Assembly (NCBI GenBank): GCA_016124735.1
Contig: WGMZ01000033.1
Span: 62,001-126,000, forward strand
DNA length: 64,000 nt
Direction of reading: 5' to 3'
Origin: Bacteroidota bacterium
GTDB lineage: Bacteria; Bacteroidota; Bacteroidia; UBA8524
In this document: positions 16,682 to 30,944 of the stretch, piece after piece
How the letters are laid out: every line of letters begins with the position of its first letter
Numbering within the stretch: the first letter of the stretch is position 1
The notes under the pieces: model-generated
What the model was told of the DNA's origin: nothing
Databases searched by the model: none
Seen by the model: the letters and a program-made list of their open reading frames with translations, nothing else
Translations under genes and position numbers: made by a program

Positions 16682-17854
16682 ATGATGAATAAAATTATTA
16701 CCGGGATCTTCGGAGTTGCTGCCCTGCTGCACAGTCTTCCATCCGGAGCGCAAACATTTAAAAACAAAGAAGGTGGACATATTGAATTCACCGTAGTAAA
16801 AGATTTAGACAAAACTGAAGTTGCCAATCAATACCGCAGTTCCACCTGCTGGAGTTTCTCTTCCCTTTCATTTTTCGAATCGGAAATCCTGCGGATAAGC
16901 GAGAAGAGAGTCAACCTTTCCGAGATGTTTGTGGTCAACCATATTTACCGCGATAAAGCCGACCGTTATGTGCGCATGCACGGAAACGGAACCTTTGCCG
17001 CCGGCGGAGGGTTTCCCGATGCGCTTTATGTAATGAAGAATTACGGAATGGTTCCTGAATCCGCCTATCCCGGAAAACTGGTCGACCCGGAAAACCATAT
17101 TCATTGGGAGATGGACAATGTTTTAAAATCGATCGTTGACGCAGTAATTGCGAATAAAAATGGAAAATTAAGCCCTGTTTGGAAGGATGCTTATACGGCA
17201 TCTCTCGACAGTTATTTAGGTGCCTTACCTGAAAAATTTGAAACAGAAGGCAGCTCTTATACTCCAAAAACATACATGGAGTCTTTAAAAATCAATCCAG
17301 ATGATTACATCGTTCTGACGAGCTTCTCACATCATCCATTCTATAGCCAGTTTGTATTGGAAGTGCCGGATAACTGGGCGGCCCAAAGTGTTTACAACGT
17401 ACCCCTGGCGGATTTTAGAGACATCATGAATTACTCGATCGACAAAGGGTACACTTTTGCCTGGGCGGCGGACGTAAGTGAATACGGTTTTAACTGGAAA
17501 AATGGGGTCGCCATTGTTCCTCAAAATGGTTGGGAATACCGTCCAAGCAAAAGCCTAATCGACAGTTTGACGGATTATCCGGTTGTACAGATGACCATCA
17601 CACAGGAAAACCGTCAAGTCGCTTTTGACAACTACGAAACACAAGATGATCATGGGATGCATATTACGGGCATCGTAAAAGATCAAAACGGAACACTTTA
17701 TTACAAAGTGAAAAACTCCTGGGGCACCAAAAGCAATGATTGCGATGGCTATCTGTATGCTTCAGAAGCTTATGTTCTTTATAAATCTACTGGCATTATG
17801 CTGCATAAAGATGCGATTCCTTCTTCTATCCGAAAGAAGATGGGGATTAAATAA
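16682..17854 (+). CDS. Secreted C1-type cysteine peptidase (bleomycin hydrolase / PepC-like)
   Basis: A 390-residue protein with a signal peptide ending in LPSGAQ, followed by a papain-fold peptidase of the C1B type. The oxyanion glutamine and nucleophile are in NQYRSSTCWSFSS (Gln50, Cys56). The catalytic histidine is in DDHGMHITGI (His327) and the asparagine in KVKNSWGTKS (Asn345). The long insertion between Cys and His, including KTYMESLKINPDDYIVLTSF and FAWAADVSEYG, is typical of bleomycin hydrolases/aminopeptidase C, which trim peptides from the N-terminus. Unlike cytoplasmic PepC it is predicted to be exported, so it probably degrades peptides in the periplasm or outside. It is monocistronic, with a strong terminator 10 bases beyond the stop. 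Confidence 0.9.
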   Translation: MMNKIITGIFGVAALLHSLPSGAQTFKNKEGGHIEFTVVKDLDKTEVANQYRSSTCWSFSSLSFFESEILRISEKRVNLSEMFVVNHIYRDKADRYVRMHGNGTFAAGGGFPDALYVMKNYGMVPESAYPGKLVDPENHIHWEMDNVLKSIVDAVIANKNGKLSPVWKDAYTASLDSYLGALPEKFETEGSSYTPKTYMESLKINPDDYIVLTSFSHHPFYSQFVLEVPDNWAAQSVYNVPLADFRDIMNYSIDKGYTFAWAADVSEYGFNWKNGVAIVPQNGWEYRPSKSLIDSLTDYPVVQMTITQENRQVAFDNYETQDDHGMHITGIVKDQNGTLYYKVKNSWGTKSNDCDGYLYASEAYVLYKSTGIMLHKDAIPSSIRKKMGIK

Positions 17855-17864
17855 AATAATCCGA

Positions 17865-17892
17865 GGCGCTCAAATTTGAGCGCCTTTTTTTT
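17865..17892 (+). terminator. Terminator of the C1-type peptidase gene, overlapping the convergent receptor gene
   Basis: A perfect 20-base palindrome GGCGCTCAAATTTGAGCGCC (17865-17884) followed by eight T. Its right part encodes the last codons (Lys-Gly-Ala-Gln-Ile-stop) of the TonB receptor on the opposite strand, whose TGA lies inside the palindrome. Confidence 0.92.
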
Positions 17893-20242
17893 GCCATAAA
17901 GGAAGGCCCATTCTCAGTTGAATATTCCGACCTGGCTGGGGAATATTTAAGTTTCTCCAAAGCGCCAGATTATTCAGATAGAATGTGTTCAACAAATTCT
18001 GGCATTGGAGTGAAATCTCCATTTCGTAATTCTTTTTGAAACGGAGTTTGCTGCCCATTCCGAGATGAATCAATTGGTAGGCAGGTGTCTTTAATTCATA
18101 GAGCTCGGTTCTGTTTTGTGCACTTGCTCTTTGCCAGTCAACACGCAGAAATGAAGTGCCCCAAAAACTCGATTTAGGGGTATAATTCCATTCTACTGCC
18201 GTTTTCAGTTGAAAGGGAGGAATCATAGGTAGGGGTCGGTCTGCACTCAGATTTTGTGCGTATACGTATTCCATTCCCATTTCCAGATGAAGCTGTTTTA
18301 AAGGATGATATTCAGCGCTCAATTCCCCTCCGCTCATGAAGGTTCTGCCTTGCTGATAGCGGTAGATATAACCGGCCTTGGGAATTGGAGAAGGATCATG
18401 ACTGGGTTGGAGATAGATGAAATTGGAAAAGTAATTCATGAATGGTGTCAGGGAAACAAACCAATTGGTTTTTTCCATCTCGTAGCCCAAATCCAGCTGC
18501 CAGGCTTGCTCGGGATTTAGGTTCCCATTGCCCTGTTCATACCGGAAGGTCCCTTCATGAACGCCATTAACACTCAGTTCCTGTGTATTTGGAATGCGGA
18601 AACTCTTTCCAAGATTCAGCTTAAACAAAGCAAAGGCATTGACTTTATGTGTCCAGCCAATGGCACCGCTGAAGTTGGAAAAATTCCTCTTATTCTCTGC
18701 GGCCAGAACGGAGACTTCAGGAACACCATTCACTACGGAATGCTCCTCAAAAGATTGAATATGCAGATATGCCCAATCGTAGCGAAGTCCCATGCTTAGA
18801 TTGCTTCGATTACTCATTTGTTTGTTCTGGAATGCAAATATTCCCGCCTGAAAAGATTGGAACGCAGGCATCAGGAATTCATATCCTCCAATCGAATTAT
18901 TTTGGTGAGACATTGACAGACCAAAGCTTCGGGTTCCTTTCTTGATCTTTTGATGATACCTCGACTGTAAACTCCAGGTTTGTAATCGCAATACATGTGC
19001 TGCATTCCCTGCTTCAAGGCTCGCCGTGCTATCTTCTGGCACCGCATTTTCTGTCCGAATATTGTATTGGTATCCCGCATCAATTTCCAACCAGTTTTTA
19101 CCCAGGTGAATATTGGTATTACTAATCAGTTTATGGTGAAGTATGCTTTGATTAGGCAATCCAATATTCCGTATCGACGCGTCTGGAGCCAACAGTATTG
19201 AATCCGTTTCTCCATCTGCTCCCGGGAAAATGCCTATTCTTTGGTCAAAGCGACTGTAAGATATTCGGGTATAGCCCCAGCTTCGATGCAGGCCCAGTTG
19301 AAGAGCTAAATGCCGCTCTTTGCCAGCGGTATTTTTCAGTTTTTGTTGATAGACAGGATAGCGGGAGTTTCCCAAACCAAAACTATCGGCTGGCAGAGAA
19401 TAATCGCCATAATCCTGAGTGGTAAAACGAAAGCGGTAAACCCAGCCGTTTTGATTGCCTTTGGCCGACAAACTGCTTCCAAAAGATTGATTCACGCTTC
19501 GGCCAAGCAGGTTTAGTTTTACCTCGTGCTGGCCGCTAATTGGGATAAGCGGTTGCTTAAGATGAATGATTCCACCAATTCCATCCGAGCCATACAATAG
19601 CGAGGCCGGACCTTTAATCACCTCTACCCTTTCTGCATTGAGCGGGTCGATCTCCAAACCATGATCTCCTCCCCATTGCTGGCCTTGCTGCTTCACCCCA
19701 TTTTCAAGCACCGCAATTCGATTCCCTGTCAATCCCCGAATCACGGGCTTCCCCACTCCGATACCCGTTTGAATGCTATTCACTCCTGGAACCTGCGCCA
19801 AGGCTCCGGCCAATGTTTGAGAAGGGTTGTTCTTTAATTGATCCTCTCCTAAAACAGTGATGGACAATGGTAATTGCGAAGGATCAAGCTTCAAAGCGTT
19901 TTGTTCCACTACGGCTTCATGCAGTTCTAAATTCGATTTTTCAAGGAGGATATCCTGAAAAGGTGTGCTATCGTTAATCTGGATAGACTTACTGAACCCA
20001 TGATAGCCAACGTAACTCACATGCAGATGATAAATCCCTGGTTTTATTCCAGTGATCTGGAATCGACCAGAATCGTTGGTGAGTGCTCCGGATAGCGTTT
20101 CATGCAGGTAGACACTCGCTCCCGATAATGGGCTATCATCTGAACCATGAACAACACCACTTAGTGCATATTCCCGGGCCTTCTGTCCAAAAGACAGAAG
20201 ATTAAAAAAACTGAAGAGTATGAGAATCCTTAAACGCAACAT
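17870..20242 (-). CDS. TonB-dependent receptor, probable metal (zinc-type) uptake
   Basis: A 790-residue outer-membrane receptor. The signal peptide ends in LLSFGQ, then a carboxypeptidase-regulatory-like domain (YALSGVVHGSDDSPLSGASVYLHE, residues 25-110). A full plug domain follows around 125-235: LPLSITVLGEDQLKNNPSQTLAGAL, VPGVNSIQ, GKPVIRGLTGNRIAVLENGV, GGDHGLEIDPLNAERVEVIKGPASLLYGS. The rest is the 22-strand barrel. This plug style is shared by ZnuD-like and cobalamin/metal receptors. The zinc assignment rests mainly on the palindrome over the start codon, which is almost identical to the one in the merC/ABC divergent promoter. The C-terminal tail KKGAQI beyond the last barrel strand is encoded by the convergent gene's terminator. 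The ATG at 20242 is the only plausible start before the signal peptide. Confidence 0.88.
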   Translation of the reverse strand: MLRLRILILFSFFNLLSFGQKAREYALSGVVHGSDDSPLSGASVYLHETLSGALTNDSGRFQITGIKPGIYHLHVSYVGYHGFSKSIQINDSTPFQDILLEKSNLELHEAVVEQNALKLDPSQLPLSITVLGEDQLKNNPSQTLAGALAQVPGVNSIQTGIGVGKPVIRGLTGNRIAVLENGVKQQGQQWGGDHGLEIDPLNAERVEVIKGPASLLYGSDGIGGIIHLKQPLIPISGQHEVKLNLLGRSVNQSFGSSLSAKGNQNGWVYRFRFTTQDYGDYSLPADSFGLGNSRYPVYQQKLKNTAGKERHLALQLGLHRSWGYTRISYSRFDQRIGIFPGADGETDSILLAPDASIRNIGLPNQSILHHKLISNTNIHLGKNWLEIDAGYQYNIRTENAVPEDSTASLEAGNAAHVLRLQTWSLQSRYHQKIKKGTRSFGLSMSHQNNSIGGYEFLMPAFQSFQAGIFAFQNKQMSNRSNLSMGLRYDWAYLHIQSFEEHSVVNGVPEVSVLAAENKRNFSNFSGAIGWTHKVNAFALFKLNLGKSFRIPNTQELSVNGVHEGTFRYEQGNGNLNPEQAWQLDLGYEMEKTNWFVSLTPFMNYFSNFIYLQPSHDPSPIPKAGYIYRYQQGRTFMSGGELSAEYHPLKQLHLEMGMEYVYAQNLSADRPLPMIPPFQLKTAVEWNYTPKSSFWGTSFLRVDWQRASAQNRTELYELKTPAYQLIHLGMGSKLRFKKNYEMEISLQCQNLLNTFYLNNLALWRNLNIPQPGRNIQLRMGLPLWQKKGAQI

Positions 20243-20249
20243 TGTTGCA
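20235..20249. promoter_or_regulatory. Probable Zur-type operator over the TonB receptor start
   Basis: CGCAAC-ATT-GTTGCA is an inverted repeat with 5 of 6 arm pairs. It matches 13 of 15 bases of the palindrome at 28216-28230. It covers the receptor's start codon (20240-20242) and touches the last base of the -7 element. The regulator's identity is inferred from the genes controlled. Confidence 0.6.
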
Positions 20250-20278
20250 AATAAAGATTCTTTTCTTCAAAGAGACAA
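20248..20278 (-). promoter_or_regulatory. Promoter of the TonB receptor gene
   Basis: On the minus strand a TTG (20276-20278) is followed after exactly 20 bases by TTTATTTG (20248-20255), one mismatch from TAnnTTTG. The spacing equals that of the promoters at 28190-28220 and 39442-39472. The start codon begins 6 bases further, so the transcript may be leaderless. Confidence 0.55.
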
Positions 20279-20280
20279 CA

Positions 20281-20925
20281 CTAGGTTCCAAAATACCGAC
20301 GAATACCGAAGCTCAACACATTATTGTAATAGCCCGTGCGGAGTCTGGGGGAGGACAGCAAACGACCATGTGGCCCACCGTCGATATTTAACACAGAATA
20401 ACTAAATCGGGCGTAGACGGTTAAGTTCTTCTTCACCAAATAGCTGCCGCCCCAATGCATTGCCCATTCCATCCGATTGTAATCCCGCGTATTGGTCAAG
20501 AAATTCCCTGAATTATTGCTGTTATAGGCCCACATTAACACACCGAATGAAGGGCCTGCTTCAATCTTCAATTTCTTAATTGAATAGGTAGCAATAATCG
20601 GCACCTCCATATAATAGAGTGCTGCCTTCAGGGGATCTGTGATATTGTTTTTGTCGACGTAATTCTTTGCTCCTTTTACCGTGAAAAGAAACTCTGCTCT
20701 CAGTCCAAATTTTTTCTTCAACTGGCGTTCTACGAACACCCCGACATGTGGACCAAACTTATCGTATCCACTGAGGTTGTCTCCATCTATCTGCGTTAGT
20801 GATACACCGAGATTGAGACCATATTGAAACTCCCTGGACTGAGCGTTCAAATCCGAATGGAAGATGAGGAAAAAGAGAAATGTGAGAAAACCTGAAAAAC
20901 CTCTGAAGCAGCTACGATAATTCAT
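20281..20925 (-). CDS. Outer-membrane beta-barrel protein, PorT-like
   Basis: A 214-residue protein with a signal peptide ending in SDLNAQ. Alternating hydrophobic/aromatic beta-strands follow: FQYGLNLGVSLTQIDGDNLSGYDKFGPHVGVFVERQL, FGLRAEFLFTVKGAKN, YYMEVPIIATYSI, KLKIEAGPSFGVLMWA. It ends in LSFGIRRYFGT. This is the outer-membrane beta-barrel family often labelled PorT family. One PorT is a T9SS assembly protein, but most family members are uncharacterised, and I cannot say this is the T9SS one. It lies between hutH (23 bases downstream of the hutH stop) and the TonB receptor on the same strand. Confidence 0.82.
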   Translation of the reverse strand: MNYRSCFRGFSGFLTFLFFLIFHSDLNAQSREFQYGLNLGVSLTQIDGDNLSGYDKFGPHVGVFVERQLKKKFGLRAEFLFTVKGAKNYVDKNNITDPLKAALYYMEVPIIATYSIKKLKIEAGPSFGVLMWAYNSNNSGNFLTNTRDYNRMEWAMHWGGSYLVKKNLTVYARFSYSVLNIDGGPHGRLLSSPRLRTGYYNNVLSFGIRRYFGT

Positions 20926-25585: not shown

Positions 25586-26929
25586 TTAGCGCATAATATA
25601 GCGTATACCCAAGCGGCCACCCAAAAACTCATTCGTTCTGTTGGGGTGATTGGGCAAAGATTGGCCGTTAAAGTTCTGCAATCCCCTGCGGTACTGTGCT
25701 TGCAGGTCTATCATCCAATTATTACCTAATTGGTACGCGATGCCTGCACTTCCGCTCATGCTCCAATAATTTTTAAAGGGATGATGCGGTCTGGCTTCCC
25801 CTGCCTGATCCATTCCAGAAAAACCCTGGTTAGGTTCAAAACCAGAATAGGCATTGATTATTGAATAGGTAATTCCTGCCTGACCAGTTAACGCCCAATT
25901 GGAATTCAAAGAATATATGTAGCCTAACTGCACTGGAATATCTATCCAAAACTGTTTGTTAACCACATGAGTTTTACCAGCAACAAGACTATCAGGGCCT
26001 GCAATCCCAGGAACTGTATCATTAAAAGTCTCCTTAAAATCATACCACAAATTCGCGCCAGAAACCGAGGAACTTAATCCAGATTGAACAAATAATCCGT
26101 TTCTGAATTTCACTCCGAACTGCAGGCCTTTGCTGTTGTACATAAAAGGATGTTCGTGATTAAAGCGCGCCGCATAGGGCCCTTTGACCAATTGTTTGTT
26201 GCTACCCAATTCGCTGGTGAGTCCTACATAAGGACGAACTCTGCCGGGAACAATATTCTTTCCTTTTCTGGCTTGTACAAATTTGGCGTGGGGATGAGTC
26301 GGACGCACTGTAAATGCAGATACAGGAGCAGAAGCTATCGTGTTTATGCTTTCTAATTTATCATTCGGTGCTAACGGCATCAATGCCTGATTCGCTTCTT
26401 CGTTGTCTTCGGCGTCCAGTAATTCTCCAGCATTTTCTTCGCCCAATTCTTCTGAAATCAGAGCCTGCTGGCTTGGATGAGGATTCATTCCAATGGTCGA
26501 TGCTTCTGTTCTTCCGCTTCTTACATTTGGAGCGATAGTCAACGTATTCGAAAGTGCTGGAGCTGTATTCGAAGCTCCTCCATTTTCTGCAATGATTTCA
26601 TCCGGGAATTGTTCTCTTTCCACCCGTACTTCCGGCGTGGTATAGATTTCCTGTTGCAGGACTTCTTCCTGGTTTTTAATCGCCTCCGCCAATTTCTGGT
26701 TCTCGTTGGCCAGATGATAGATTCCCAATCCGCTCAAAAGCAGCAAGCCGCCCATCACATATACCATCCAAACTGCACGCTTGCTCCGATTTTCTTTTTT
26801 CACCAAATCGTGCTCAATACGGTCCCATAAGCTGTCCGACAGCTCAGGCTCAAACGAATCGATCCGTTCACGCAACTTCTTATTGAAGCGGTTTTGGTTA
26901 TAAAAATCGTTTAGACTCTCGTTGCTCAT
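25586..26929 (-). CDS. Membrane-anchored protein with C-terminal beta-barrel-like domain, sigma factor partner
   Basis: A 447-residue protein in three parts. A charged cytoplasmic N-terminus (LRERIDSFEPELSDSLWDRIEHDLVKKENRSKR, residues 18-50) precedes one transmembrane helix (VWMVYVMGGLLLLSGLGIY, about 53-71). A coiled-coil and proline/alanine-rich linker of about 150 residues follows, and then a C-terminal region rich in outer-membrane-barrel-like strands (FNHEHPFMYNSKGLQFGVKFRNGLFVQSGL, GRLGIRYIMR). There is no signal peptide. The start overlaps the sigma factor stop by 32 bases. Position and the short cytoplasmic N-terminus suggest control of that sigma factor, as with membrane anti-sigma factors, but no zinc anti-sigma motif is seen. 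Such sigma-barrel pairs occur in Bacteroidota; their mechanism is not established. Confidence 0.75.
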   Translation of the reverse strand: MSNESLNDFYNQNRFNKKLRERIDSFEPELSDSLWDRIEHDLVKKENRSKRAVWMVYVMGGLLLLSGLGIYHLANENQKLAEAIKNQEEVLQQEIYTTPEVRVEREQFPDEIIAENGGASNTAPALSNTLTIAPNVRSGRTEASTIGMNPHPSQQALISEELGEENAGELLDAEDNEEANQALMPLAPNDKLESINTIASAPVSAFTVRPTHPHAKFVQARKGKNIVPGRVRPYVGLTSELGSNKQLVKGPYAARFNHEHPFMYNSKGLQFGVKFRNGLFVQSGLSSSVSGANLWYDFKETFNDTVPGIAGPDSLVAGKTHVVNKQFWIDIPVQLGYIYSLNSNWALTGQAGITYSIINAYSGFEPNQGFSGMDQAGEARPHHPFKNYWSMSGSAGIAYQLGNNWMIDLQAQYRRGLQNFNGQSLPNHPNRTNEFLGGRLGIRYIMR

Positions 26930-27455
26930 TTCTCTTTAACTTCTCTTGCAGCAGCATTCTTGCTCTGCTAAACTGGCTCTTCGATGTTCCCACCGAAATG
27001 TCCAGTGTTTCTCCTATTTCCTTATGCGTGTACCCCTCAATGGCGTACAAGGTGAATACCATTCTGGATCCTTCGGGTAATTCCTGAACGGCTTTGATAA
27101 TATCTCTTACGGCAAAGCTGTCCAGATCGAGGTCTCCAATCATGTATTCGGCATCTTCCAGGTTCACTTCCGAAAATTTGATCCGCTTTTTCTTGCGGTA
27201 GTAGTCGGTTGCAGTATTCACCACAATACGGCGAATCCAGCCTTCCAGACTTCCGGTAGGCTGATACCTTTTGATGTTTTCAAATATTTTAATGAACGAC
27301 TCCTGCAAAATATTTTCCGCTTCATAGGTGTCGCGGGAATAACTCATGCATACGCCCAACATCTTACGTGCAAAGCGCTCGTACAATTTTTTCTGGTAGA
27401 ACCTGTTTTGGTCTACGCAGCCTTGTACCAGCTCTATGTCGGAGATATTGGTCAT
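26898..27455 (-). CDS. RNA polymerase sigma factor, ECF family
   Basis: About 185 residues from MTNISDIELVQGCV; a start 36 bases upstream is possible. Sigma region 2 (residues 5-80) has YERFARKMLGVCMSYSRDTYEAENILQESFIKIFENI and the DNA-binding GWIRRIVVNTATDYYRKKKR. Region 4 has LPEGSRMVFTLYAIEGYTHKEIGETLDISVGTSKSQFSRARMLLQEKL, a standard helix-turn-helix. It is a sigma-70 family factor of the extracytoplasmic-function group, expected to respond to envelope signals. It is coupled by overlap to the membrane-anchored barrel protein, the likely regulator or output. Confidence 0.93.
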   Translation of the reverse strand: MTNISDIELVQGCVDQNRFYQKKLYERFARKMLGVCMSYSRDTYEAENILQESFIKIFENIKRYQPTGSLEGWIRRIVVNTATDYYRKKKRIKFSEVNLEDAEYMIGDLDLDSFAVRDIIKAVQELPEGSRMVFTLYAIEGYTHKEIGETLDISVGTSKSQFSRARMLLQEKLKRNEQRESKRFL

Positions 27456-27561
27456 GGTTTTTGCGTTTGCGTTTGAATCTATAACGCACAAAAATAACAG
27501 GAGGTTGGATTGGGGCGAAAGTTTTTCGTTTTAAGACGAAAGGCGATAAATTTTTTTGCCC

Positions 27562-27806: not shown

Positions 27807-28178
27807 TCAAGCAATTGCACAGGAACGTATATGCCGGAAATTAAAAAAGTGGAACACTACCAGGGATATTGCCGCCATCCAGGAAAGCACCGTGAATAGG
27901 AATAGTTCGTGACTGAAGAAAATGGATAAGGATAAAACCAAAATGGAAATTCGTAATCCCCATTTGATCCATTTCATGCTGTGACCTTTGGTTACCGAAT
28001 ACACAGCCCATCCGCTAACAAGTAGAAACAATACATCCCAGATATGCCATCCGTCAGGCTCTATAAATCCATAGCCCAACAAGACCAATACAGGTCCGGC
28101 AAGACAATGAATCAGGCATAGACCAGAACTGATCATGCCCAACAAATCGGATTTCGGATTGTGCTCGTGATGATGCAT
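27807..28178 (-). CDS. MerC domain-containing membrane protein
   Basis: About 123 residues from MHHHEHNPKSDLLGM. I choose this start because an upstream ATG at 28223 would lie inside the operator and above the promoter elements. The His-rich N-terminus (HHHEH) is followed by a MerC-like core: LGMISSGLCLIHCLAGPVLVLLGYGF, with the paired cysteines of LCLIHC, and about four transmembrane helices. Proteobacterial MerC moves Hg(II), but Bacteroidota members without mer genes are thought to handle other metals. Here the shared operator with an ABC operon and the absence of merA/merT favour zinc or a related metal. The gene is divergent from the ABC operon. Confidence 0.82.
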   Translation of the reverse strand: MHHHEHNPKSDLLGMISSGLCLIHCLAGPVLVLLGYGFIEPDGWHIWDVLFLLVSGWAVYSVTKGHSMKWIKWGLRISILVLSLSIFFSHELFLFTVLSWMAAISLVVFHFFNFRHIRSCAIA

Positions 28179-28189
28179 TTTTGAAGGAA

Positions 28190-28220
28190 CAAAGATAATT
28201 GCATTCTTTTTTACTTGCAA
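28190..28220 (-). promoter_or_regulatory. Promoter of the merC-like gene
   Basis: On the minus strand TTG (28218-28220) and TATCTTTG (28190-28197, exact TAnnTTTG) are separated by exactly 20 bases. The start codon lies 11 bases beyond the -7 element. The -33 box is inside the palindrome 28216-28230, so a bound repressor would block it. Confidence 0.7.
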
Positions 28221-28230
28221 CATAGTTGCA
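28216..28230. promoter_or_regulatory. Palindromic operator (probable Zur-type) between merC and the ABC operon
   Basis: TGCAAC-ATA-GTTGCA is a perfect 6-bp inverted repeat with a 3-base spacer, 5 bases before the ABC operon ATG and overlapping the merC -33 box. A near-identical site lies at the TonB receptor start (20235-20249). That a Fur-family zinc repressor binds it is inferred from the controlled genes; no fur/zur gene is in the window. Confidence 0.65.
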
Positions 28231-28235
28231 TAAAT

Positions 28236-28889
28236 ATGCTTCGATCAGAACCTCTGCACTTTGAATACACCTCCGGGACTGCACTGGACTTTCCTGGATT
28301 TGAGTTAGTTGCAGGAGAGCATCTCCTGATTCTGGGAGCTTCCGGATCCGGAAAAAGCACCTGGCTACAATTGCTCTCCGGAATACGCAAACCAAAAACA
28401 GGAAATATTTATTACGGAACAAGGGCATTGAATGTGCTCAAGGGTTCTGCGCTGGATCAATTCCGGAACCAGCATATCGGCATCATCTTTCAGGAACATG
28501 CTTTTATCCCCTCCCTTTCTGCGCGGGAAAATTTAATGCTGAGTACCCCAGACATTCCGGCACTGGAGAATAAAGCAAAAGCGTTGGGACTTCATCATCT
28601 ATTGAATAAAAAGCCGCAGCACCTGAGTGTGGGCGAACGCCAAAGGTTGGCCATCCTTCGTTGTTTGTTGAGAAAACCTCAGGTAATTCTTGCCGATGAA
28701 CCGAGCTCCAGCCTGGATGACATTCATTGCGAACGGGTGATTCAACTTTTGCTGGATGAAGCCAAAAAACTCAATGCCTCACTCATTGTAGTCACACATG
28801 ATGCCCGGGTGAAGCCCTTTTTGAAAGGAGACTCGAAAGATGACACTCCTTTACATTGCATGGAAAAACCTACGCTACCGCTGGAATAG
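28236..28889 (+). CDS. ABC transporter ATP-binding protein (MacB-like, zinc-starvation operon type)
   Basis: 217 residues from MLRSEPLHFEY; an in-frame TTG upstream is inside the operator and rejected. Walker A is GASGSGKST (residues 34-42), the Q-loop is in IIFQEHAFIPSLSARENL, the ABC signature is LSVGERQRL, Walker B is VILADEPSSSLDD and the switch His is in VVTHDARV. It resembles LolD/MacB ATPases that power type VII ABC systems. It is the first gene of the operon ATPase-permease-DUF3299-DUF6702, and the frame overlaps the permease by 50 bases. The gene order (ATPase, permease, DUF3299) equals that of PA4064-PA4066 of Pseudomonas aeruginosa, known to be zinc-repressed. Confidence 0.9.
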   Translation: MLRSEPLHFEYTSGTALDFPGFELVAGEHLLILGASGSGKSTWLQLLSGIRKPKTGNIYYGTRALNVLKGSALDQFRNQHIGIIFQEHAFIPSLSARENLMLSTPDIPALENKAKALGLHHLLNKKPQHLSVGERQRLAILRCLLRKPQVILADEPSSSLDDIHCERVIQLLLDEAKKLNASLIVVTHDARVKPFLKGDSKDDTPLHCMEKPTLPLE

Positions 28890-30018
28890 TCATCTGCTAA
28901 GTCTGCTTTTATTCTCAATTTCCATTGGCATCCTCTGGGCGGTTCACGAATTTGCCCGCCAAAGTGAAGAGAAATTAAAAGCTAACCTGGCACAAACGGA
29001 TCTGGTTATCGGTGCCAAAGGTAGTCCGCTGCAAATCATCCTTTCTTCGCTTTACCATATCGATGCTCCAACGGGCAATATTTCCTATATTGAAGCCAAA
29101 CGCTGGATGCATCACCCCATGATACGGCAAGCCATTCCTCTTGCTTATGGCGATTATTACCAGCAGTATAAAATTATTGGAAGCGATACGGGCATTCTTT
29201 CCTGGTACGGAGTTCAACTTGCGGAGGGAAATGTTTGGCACCAAGCAGGAGATGTTGTTCTGGGTGCTGCCCTTGCGCATCAAACTCATCTGCAAATTGG
29301 AAGCACATTTAGCGGACAGCACGGCAGTATGGATGCCGAAGCGGAACATGGTCAATACCGGGTGGTTGGCATATTGGAACCCAAAGGAACAGTAATTGAT
29401 CAATTGGTATTATGTGCTCTGGAAACCGTGTGGGCCGTCCATGAGAAACACGGTGCAGTCCTGGCTGATTCAGCAAAAGAAGTTACCGCCGTCTTATTGC
29501 GCTACAAGAACCCAATGGCAGCTATTCAAATTCCAAGGGCCATCAATGAAAACAGCAATTTACAGGCAGCCGCACCGAGCATTGAAATCAACCGATTGGC
29601 ATTTATGCTGAATAATGGAACGGATGTGATTGCCTATCTGGCAATCGGGCTATTTGTGCTTGCAGCCTTGAGCATGCTTATCCAGGTATGGATGGGACTT
29701 AAAGTCCGCAAAAAGGAATTGGCCCTTCTTCGTTATACCGGATATACAAGAAGCCGAATTCTACTCCTTCTGTACTACGAAATTGCTTTTATCAGCCTTT
29801 TGTCTTTTGTATTTGGAGAAATGTTGGCACGTGTCCTTTTACATACCTTTAGCGATGCATTGGCTTTTGGCAGCAGCTATACATTAAATGCAACCCATTT
29901 CACTTCTTTCGATCTGCTATTGCTGGGAATGCCTCTGCTCATCGCAGGACTTCCTTTGCTTTTTAACCTGCGGAGTATATTTCGCAGTTCTGTGGCCGAT
30001 TTATTGCAAAACGAATAA
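28840..30018 (+). CDS. ABC transporter permease (FtsX/MacB-like)
   Basis: A 392-residue inner-membrane protein with one N-terminal helix (residues 15-36). A periplasmic domain of about 210 residues contains DLVIGAKGSPLQIILSSLYHIDAPTGNI, the typical opening of this permease subfamily, and QYKIIGSDTG. Three C-terminal helices (about 255-390) form the FtsX domain. The periplasmic part is rich in histidines (MHHPMIRQ, WHQAGD, HQTH, HGSMDAEAEHGQY), consistent with metal handling, although that is inference. Transporters of this class usually do mechanical or extrusion work across the periplasm, not import. It is co-transcribed with the ATPase (50-base overlap) and the two small proteins downstream. 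Confidence 0.88.
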   Translation: MTLLYIAWKNLRYRWNSHLLSLLLFSISIGILWAVHEFARQSEEKLKANLAQTDLVIGAKGSPLQIILSSLYHIDAPTGNISYIEAKRWMHHPMIRQAIPLAYGDYYQQYKIIGSDTGILSWYGVQLAEGNVWHQAGDVVLGAALAHQTHLQIGSTFSGQHGSMDAEAEHGQYRVVGILEPKGTVIDQLVLCALETVWAVHEKHGAVLADSAKEVTAVLLRYKNPMAAIQIPRAINENSNLQAAAPSIEINRLAFMLNNGTDVIAYLAIGLFVLAALSMLIQVWMGLKVRKKELALLRYTGYTRSRILLLLYYEIAFISLLSFVFGEMLARVLLHTFSDALAFGSSYTLNATHFTSFDLLLLGMPLLIAGLPLLFNLRSIFRSSVADLLQNE

Positions 30019-30037: not shown

Positions 30038-30466
30038 ATGAAAAGAAATCTTCTTCTCTTTTTTCTTTTTGTTCTTCCCTTTGGACAACCCGAACAAATC
30101 ACTTGGAAAACCCTGTCAGATGTCAAGTTTGAAAAACAATGGGATAAAAAGGAAGGCATGTATGTGCTTTATCCGAGTTTTGGTGAATCGGTTAAAAAAA
30201 TGGCGGGCAAAGAAGTGCAAATCAGTGGCTATGTGATTCCCGTCGACTATAATGAAAATTTCTATGTTCTCAGCGCCTTTCCTTACAGTGCTTGTTTCTT
30301 TTGCGGTGGTGCCGGACCTGAATCTGTCATATCTCTCAAATTCAAAGACAAAAGCGAACGGTTTAAAACCGATACAAAACTGGAAGTCAAAGGCCGATTA
30401 GAGCTGAACAGTTCCGATATTTACGAAATGAATTATATCCTCCGTGATGTTGAAAAAGTTCATTAG
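30038..30466 (+). CDS. DUF3299-like periplasmic protein
   Basis: 142 residues from MKRNLLLFFLFVLPFG, a signal peptide; in-frame codons upstream overlap the permease gene and are not used. The mature protein has WDKKEGMYVLYPSFGESVKKMAGKEVQISGYVIPVDYNENFYVLS, then SACFFCGGAGPESVISL, then KLEVKGRLELNSSDIYEMNYIL. The ISGYVIPVD segment, the metal-ligand-like CFFC pair and the OB-fold-like strand pattern fit DUF3299, the family of PA4066. In Pseudomonas and Vibrio the family is zinc-repressed and sits with the same ABC pair. It is probably a periplasmic or lipid-anchored accessory of the transporter. It overlaps the DUF6702 gene by 20 bases. Confidence 0.75.
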   Translation: MKRNLLLFFLFVLPFGQPEQITWKTLSDVKFEKQWDKKEGMYVLYPSFGESVKKMAGKEVQISGYVIPVDYNENFYVLSAFPYSACFFCGGAGPESVISLKFKDKSERFKTDTKLEVKGRLELNSSDIYEMNYILRDVEKVH

Positions 30467-30944
30467 TTGGGGAATCCTTCTGTTGACCCTGGTATTTCTC
30501 TCATCCGCCAGTCTGCATAAGTTTTATGTGAGCCATTATACCCTGGATTACCGCCATCAAACATTGGAGATTACAGCCAAGGTATTTACCGATGACCTGG
30601 AAAAGGTGCTACAAACAGATGATGCCTCTCTACGCATTGACGAGCGGCAAGATTCCAAATTACTGGGAAAGAAAATCTCTGACTATTATTCCAATCATCT
30701 GCAAATTCAATTGGATCATCACAAAATAGAGACAGACTATGTGGGTTATGAACTGGATCAGGACGTGCTCTACGTTTATATGAAGATTGATTCGCTGTCC
30801 TCTGCACCAAAATCCTTGCGAATTCAATGCGATGCACTAACTGAATCCTTCCCGGATCAGGTCAATTTGTTCCGGGTAAAATGTGGTTCCATAGATCAGA
30901 CCTTTTTTCTGAATTCATCGGAGAAAACCAAAGATTTGCCCTGA
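30447..30944 (+). CDS. DUF6702 family protein
   Basis: 165 residues from MLKKFISWGILLLTLVFLSS (signal peptide or anchor). The mature protein starts HKFYVSHYTLDYRHQTLEITAKVFTDDLEKVLQ, the recognisable opening of DUF6702, with several histidines (HKF, SHY, RHQ, NHLQIQLDHH). In proteobacterial versions of this operon the corresponding small protein is the zinc-binding DUF2796 (ZrgA type). DUF6702 may play that role here, which is an inference from position and composition. Last gene of the operon; the next gene lies 29 bases on. Confidence 0.75.
   Translation: MLKKFISWGILLLTLVFLSSASLHKFYVSHYTLDYRHQTLEITAKVFTDDLEKVLQTDDASLRIDERQDSKLLGKKISDYYSNHLQIQLDHHKIETDYVGYELDQDVLYVYMKIDSLSSAPKSLRIQCDALTESFPDQVNLFRVKCGSIDQTFFLNSSEKTKDLP

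Follow-up and report, generated by a model that had tools for sequence, protein, structure and literature searches.

A predicted Zur operator spanning the start codon of a ZnuD-like TonB receptor gene in Bacteroidota

In Proteobacteria, Zur is known to repress zinc receptors and operons of the Zrg type. The regulons of E. coli, Vibrio, Pseudomonas and Caulobacter (ZnuD-type receptors, ZigA, ZrgABCDE) resemble the system proposed here in having a Fur-family zinc repressor and a palindromic operator at a zinc receptor, a zinc ABC operon and a zinc-chaperone GTPase. They differ in the operator sequence, the predicted Vibrio site being TGAGTGTTATATTATAACACCCG (PMC9817125) as against TTGCAACNNNGTTGCAA here, in the promoter, which here is of the sigma-A type TAnnTTTG, and in that the operator here contains the start codon. 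Leaderless repressed operons have also been described, namely acuR-acuI-dddL in R. sphaeroides (PMC3017554) and nreAXY in Mesorhizobium (PMC12724321). They share with the present case a compact promoter and an operator overlapping promoter elements; their transcripts start at the AUG, as 5′ RACE showed, and a start next to the AUG is predicted here. In both, however, the start codon comes after the operator, which spans −30 to −12 in nre and lies over the promoter in acuR, whereas the operator described below has the start codon at its centre and encodes residues 1–3 with its 3′ arm. For Bacteroidota, we found no description of a Zur operator or regulon in the open-access literature searched; a paper outside it may exist.

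The window, i.e., the whole stretch of DNA analysed, comprises 64,000 nucleotides. Its positions 20235–20249 read CGCAACATTGTTGCA on the forward strand (CGCAAC-ATT-GTTGCA), the complement being TGCAAC-AAT-GTTGCG. This palindrome (operator 1) is a predicted Zur box. The receptor ATG (20242–20240, minus strand) lies within the minus-strand reading, which encodes residues 1–3 (M-L-R), and no in-frame start codon was found upstream of 20242 in the 790-aa receptor ORF. An earlier note on this DNA had described a palindrome on the receptor ATG, two changes away from another copy 8 kb away, and reading the window sequence confirmed this, the partner being at 28216–28230. Its TTG-N20-TTTATTTG promoter, said to end inside the palindrome, was likewise recovered on the minus strand with five bases between its last base and the A of the ATG; the full layout is TTG-N20-TTTATTTG-CAACA-ATG-TTGCG.

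The −7 element TTTATTTG (20248–20255, minus strand) has one mismatch to TAnnTTTG and shares its TG with the operator. A possible −33 element, TTG (20276–20278, minus strand), is located 20 nt upstream of it, on weak evidence. A sigma-70 promoter scan of the receptor site gave no match, sigma-70 being the wrong promoter type for Bacteroidota. In Flavobacterium psychrophilum, TAnnTTTG occupies −12 to −5 (PMC9723704). When this position is applied to the receptor, the predicted transcription start is the A at 20243 (minus strand), one base before the ATG. The leaderless receptor mRNA claimed earlier probably holds in a slightly weaker form: the position of the −7 element and 20 further receptors with the same geometry support a near-leaderless transcript, for which one leader nucleotide is predicted. 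The palindrome thus takes in the start codon, the predicted +1 and the last bases of the −7 element; a Fur-family dimer would extend beyond it on both sides.

The position of TAnnTTTG was counted around 23 exact palindromes (46 arms), which were picked regardless of promoters. The element overlaps the first TTG of the palindrome in 6 of the 46 arms and ends 24 bases beyond the palindrome centre in four, as compared with a mean of 0.19 per position. Given these two preferred places, what lies under the operator is, in one type, the −7 end with +1, as at the receptor, and in the other the −33 region. The merC gene (see below) is of the latter type with a longer spacing: its −7 element TATCTTTG is read at 28197–28190 (minus strand), and the TTG 20 bases upstream falls in the operator arm. 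Both placements are compatible with a repressor that would block RNA polymerase.

Some observations weigh against a near-leaderless start. The leaderless share is low in Bacteroidota (~4% to 5.5%): 5.5% of mapped F. psychrophilum mRNAs are leaderless or nearly so (PMC9723704), and 3.7% (~4%) of mapped B. thetaiotaomicron mRNAs have leaders under 10 nt. The one-mismatch −7 element and the weak −33 TTG are weak spots of the receptor promoter as well. Only 38 nt separate the receptor from the beta-barrel gene (20281–20925), no terminator-like site was found in this gap, and G002 and G004 share the gene order hutH–beta-barrel–receptor. The receptor might therefore be transcribed mainly from an upstream promoter, with the beta-barrel gene or hutH and with a long leader, in which case Zur would still bind the operator but serve as a roadblock or act on a minor promoter. 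We consider this arrangement unlikely, as the −7 element is fused to the operator both here and in G004, which is a general feature of these sites, and many other genomes have the same layout at receptor genes that stand next to other genes.

The preferred reading, a near-leaderless receptor gene under Zur, agrees with the identity of the gene product. The gene (17870–20242, minus strand) encodes a ZnuD-like TonB-dependent receptor of 790 aa with the signal peptide MLRLRILILFSFFNLLSFGQ. Its best NCBIfam match out of 25 models is ZnuD, at 158.2 bits against a cutoff of 950, which places it outside the ZnuD equivalog. Its best relative in the PDB is again ZnuD (94 bits), followed by OprC (49 bits). 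Like ZnuD of N. meningitidis and A. baumannii, it would be repressed together with other zinc genes; unlike ZnuD, it carries an N-terminal carboxypeptidase-regulatory-like domain (PF13715). A C1-type peptidase gene downstream of the receptor (16682–17854) is kept in G002 and G003, and the kept beta-barrel and peptidase genes suggest a functional neighbourhood.

The second palindrome, TGCAACATAGTTGCA (operator 2, predicted Zur box, 28216–28230), lies between merC and the ABC operon, differs from operator 1 by two changes and is kept in L036 and L043. The merC-domain gene (27807–28178, minus strand; −7 element at 28190–28197) most likely starts at 28178 with MHHHEHNPK, judged by the congener locus L036. 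The ATG inside the palindrome was ruled out as the merC start because the frame from it is stopped in L036. On the plus strand follow a LolD-like ABC ATPase (ZrgC-like, 28236–28889, starting at ATG 28236), an FtsX/MacB-type permease (ZrgB-like, 28840–30018), a DUF3299 protein (ZrgE-like, 30038–30466; the ORF is listed from 29888, the likely start being MKRNLLLFF at 30038) and a DUF6702 protein (30444–30944), the last gene of the likely operon. The gene order and the operator 2 site are the same in G001 (L036) and G004 (L043).

In Vibrio, the Zur-repressed zinc operon has counterparts of the ATPase, the permease and the DUF3299 protein in ZrgC, ZrgB and ZrgE, respectively; as in ZrgABCDE, the three window genes stand in one likely operon under a zinc site (PMC9817125). 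The window locus differs from ZrgABCDE in the DUF6702 protein and the divergent merC. Since none of the scanned neighbours (merC, ATPase, permease, DUF3299 and DUF6702 proteins) matched DUF2796, the domain of ZrgA, the locus is MerC plus a ZrgC-B-E-like zinc operon, short of a full Zrg system. Mercury resistance was rejected as its function, MerC being one among several zinc-linked genes under the same site. A sigma-factor-like gene (26898–27491) adjoins merC in the window; it is also found beside a Zur-box receptor in G001 (L035) and a Zur-box DUF4625 gene in G003 (L038), and is thus a conserved neighbour of zinc genes.

The Zur-type site, the ZnuD match of the receptor and the MerC plus ZrgC-B-E-like operon together indicate that the imported metal is probably zinc and not mercury. 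The earlier note had linked the receptor to a merC/ABC regulon and proposed that both handle the same metal. Comparison upholds both points: the site is kept at the same genes in relatives, Zur can be named as the candidate regulator, and zinc is the probable substrate, judged from the regulon and from similarity.

The palindrome is very probably the operator of Zur, the zinc uptake regulator. The genome encodes two Fur-family proteins, of which L003 resembles Fur and PerR, and L004 is most like E. coli Zur (L004:1471-1884, PF01475; best PDB match E. coli Zur, 4mtd; best NCBIfam match Zur, below the curated cutoff). The genes that follow the 15-mer in relatives encode Zur homologs, MerC, DUF4625 proteins, TonB receptors, ABC proteins and zinc-chaperone GTPases of the ZigA type, the last scoring 541 and 548 bits against a ZigA model cutoff of 600. 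Among 60 relatives, most from different families, exact palindromes are present in 15 of 19 genomes with zur and in 4 of 41 without it (p = 2e-7, kinship ignored); in one of these four zur-less genomes, the palindrome sits within a 499-codon ORF. The promoter-plus-operator pattern has at least 120 matches in named genomes, at least 93 of them in Bacteroidota by a hand count of record titles. Among the matches listed, at least 55 adjoin genes for TonB receptors (19), MerC (14), ZigA (12), Zur (9), ABC proteins (4) or DUF4625 proteins (2), some adjoining two. A TAATTTTGCAACAATGTTGCAAAAT-like sequence is present nine or more times in a Verrucomicrobia MAG (UBA1183; L153, L155, L169, L190, L224, L228, L237, L249, L261) and seems to be a repeat family unconnected with zinc genes.

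The congener G001 counts against Zur: both sites are present in this 97% complete draft, in which only the Fur-like paralog and no zur was detected. G002 also carries sites, and only an L003-type Fur protein was found there. The palindrome could accordingly be read by a regulator other than Zur, in the simplest case the L003-type second Fur-family protein, otherwise another factor, with another metal being imported; the name MerC would suggest mercury. This is improbable to our minds. Zur genes accompany the sites across families, and zur and ZigA genes are found behind them; the G002 genome is only 80% complete, and L003-type proteins are also encoded in G007, G050 and G053, where sites are few and, in the case looked at (G050), within an ORF. 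In the genome itself, the search for a ZigA gene gave two weak cobW-domain matches only, and the best box at its own zur scored 10/14, which is not convincing as an operator; autoregulation of this gene was therefore not adopted.

The number of sites alone carries no weight. The core GCAACNNNGTTGC occurs in two copies only in the 3.11-Mb genome, at the receptor start and between the merC and ABC genes, and the genome composition predicts about 2.1. The mismatch-tolerant motif count in the window was reached by 21 of 100 shuffles. Motif counts in the window and the genome were hence dropped as evidence, being not above chance. The four other one-mismatch copies of the 15-mer in the genome are all inside ORFs and were ruled out as regulon members. 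What goes beyond chance is that both core copies are at the starts of related genes 8 kb apart, that the four other copies are confined to ORFs, and that relatives keep the site at these genes; because the copy count is no more than chance, the case rests on position and conservation. That the palindrome is a coincidence without regulatory function, as the predicted copy number and the shuffles would allow, is very hard to reconcile with both copies being at gene starts, conserved with their genes in relatives, and with G002, G003 and G004 all having kept an operator ahead of this receptor gene.

Sequence comparison shows the site and its placement, its association with zinc genes, the promoter geometry and the recurrence of the embedded start codon; from these we infer a probable Zur operator controlling a near-leaderless ZnuD-like receptor gene as well as merC and the ZrgC-B-E-like zinc operon. 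When zinc is plentiful, a zinc-loaded Zur dimer would sit on the 15–17 bp palindrome, where it would cover the start codon together with the −7 element and the transcription start, and would keep RNA polymerase off. When zinc is scarce, Zur would leave, and the transcript would begin one base before the ATG. The near-leaderless mRNA would then yield the ZnuD-like TonB receptor, which would import zinc, or a zinc complex, through the outer membrane. The same Zur would control merC and the ZrgC-B-E-like operon 8 kb away.

The embedded start codon is not restricted to the window. In 21 distinct receptor genes across Bacteroidota, the start codon is at the operator centre directly behind the −7 element; it is ATG in 17, TTG in three (L010, L223, L236) and GTG in one (L095), all in the same frame. 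With the spacer NAT, an ATG falls within the palindrome at +2, and the four non-ATG receptors were not found via an operator ATG. In all 21 receptors, residue 2 is Leu and residue 3 is His, Gln or Arg; in most, a signal-peptide-like hydrophobic stretch follows residues 1–3, and 13 of the 21 are without another Met in the first 20 residues. Among the matches listed, the operator ATG is used as the start in 17 of 23 receptors, the other six starting elsewhere, versus none of 12 ZigA neighbours (p = 3e-5); L194 and L203, both zur genes, and the MerC gene L248 likewise start there.

A quick tree of 47 receptors, with the N-terminal 40 residues removed and with some long branches, places the embedded start in 15 of 19 members of one subfamily and scattered in 6 of 28 members of the other, the window receptor among the latter. 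Its well-supported branches force at least eight changes in this trait. The receptor orthologs in G002 (same genus) and in G004 and G003 (same family) keep an operator, TTGCAACATTATTGCAT, but overlap with the start codon is absent from these nearest orthologs: the predicted start follows +1 by 19 nt in G002, by 14 nt in G004 and further downstream in G003. As the nearest orthologs keep the operator without the overlap and other receptors have it, the overlap here is a lineage-specific instance of a recurrent design. On balance, we favour the view that zinc-regulon receptors of Bacteroidota repeatedly evolved one element serving as Zur operator, as the −7 3′ end and transcription start, and as the start codon with signal-peptide codons 1–3. 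If so, this would be a switch that can be repressed and has no 5′ leader, its operator arms fixing the N-terminus M-L-H/Q/R.

As far as the open-access literature searched shows, two things are new: an operator consensus for Bacteroidota together with its regulon, and a fusion of operator and start codon that recurs. The motif TTGCAACNNNGTTGCAA would give a direct handle on zinc regulons across Bacteroidota. The embedded start codon would offer a testable reason for the leaderless minority of Bacteroidota mRNAs, and it would be a case of a DNA-binding site constraining the first residues of a protein.

Two minor observations concern other genes. At the genome's own zur, a −7 element without mismatch lies four bases ahead of the ATG (TATCTTTG-TAAC-ATG; L004:1455-1473, G000:C45), so its mRNA, too, is probably leaderless, even though the gene lacks a good operator; the zur gene of G004 (L124) has the same spacing, TATCTTTG-TGCC-ATG. 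DUF4625 proteins, whose function is unknown, are repeatedly encoded behind the zinc operator (L037, L038, L042, L163, L211), which suggests a role in zinc acquisition.
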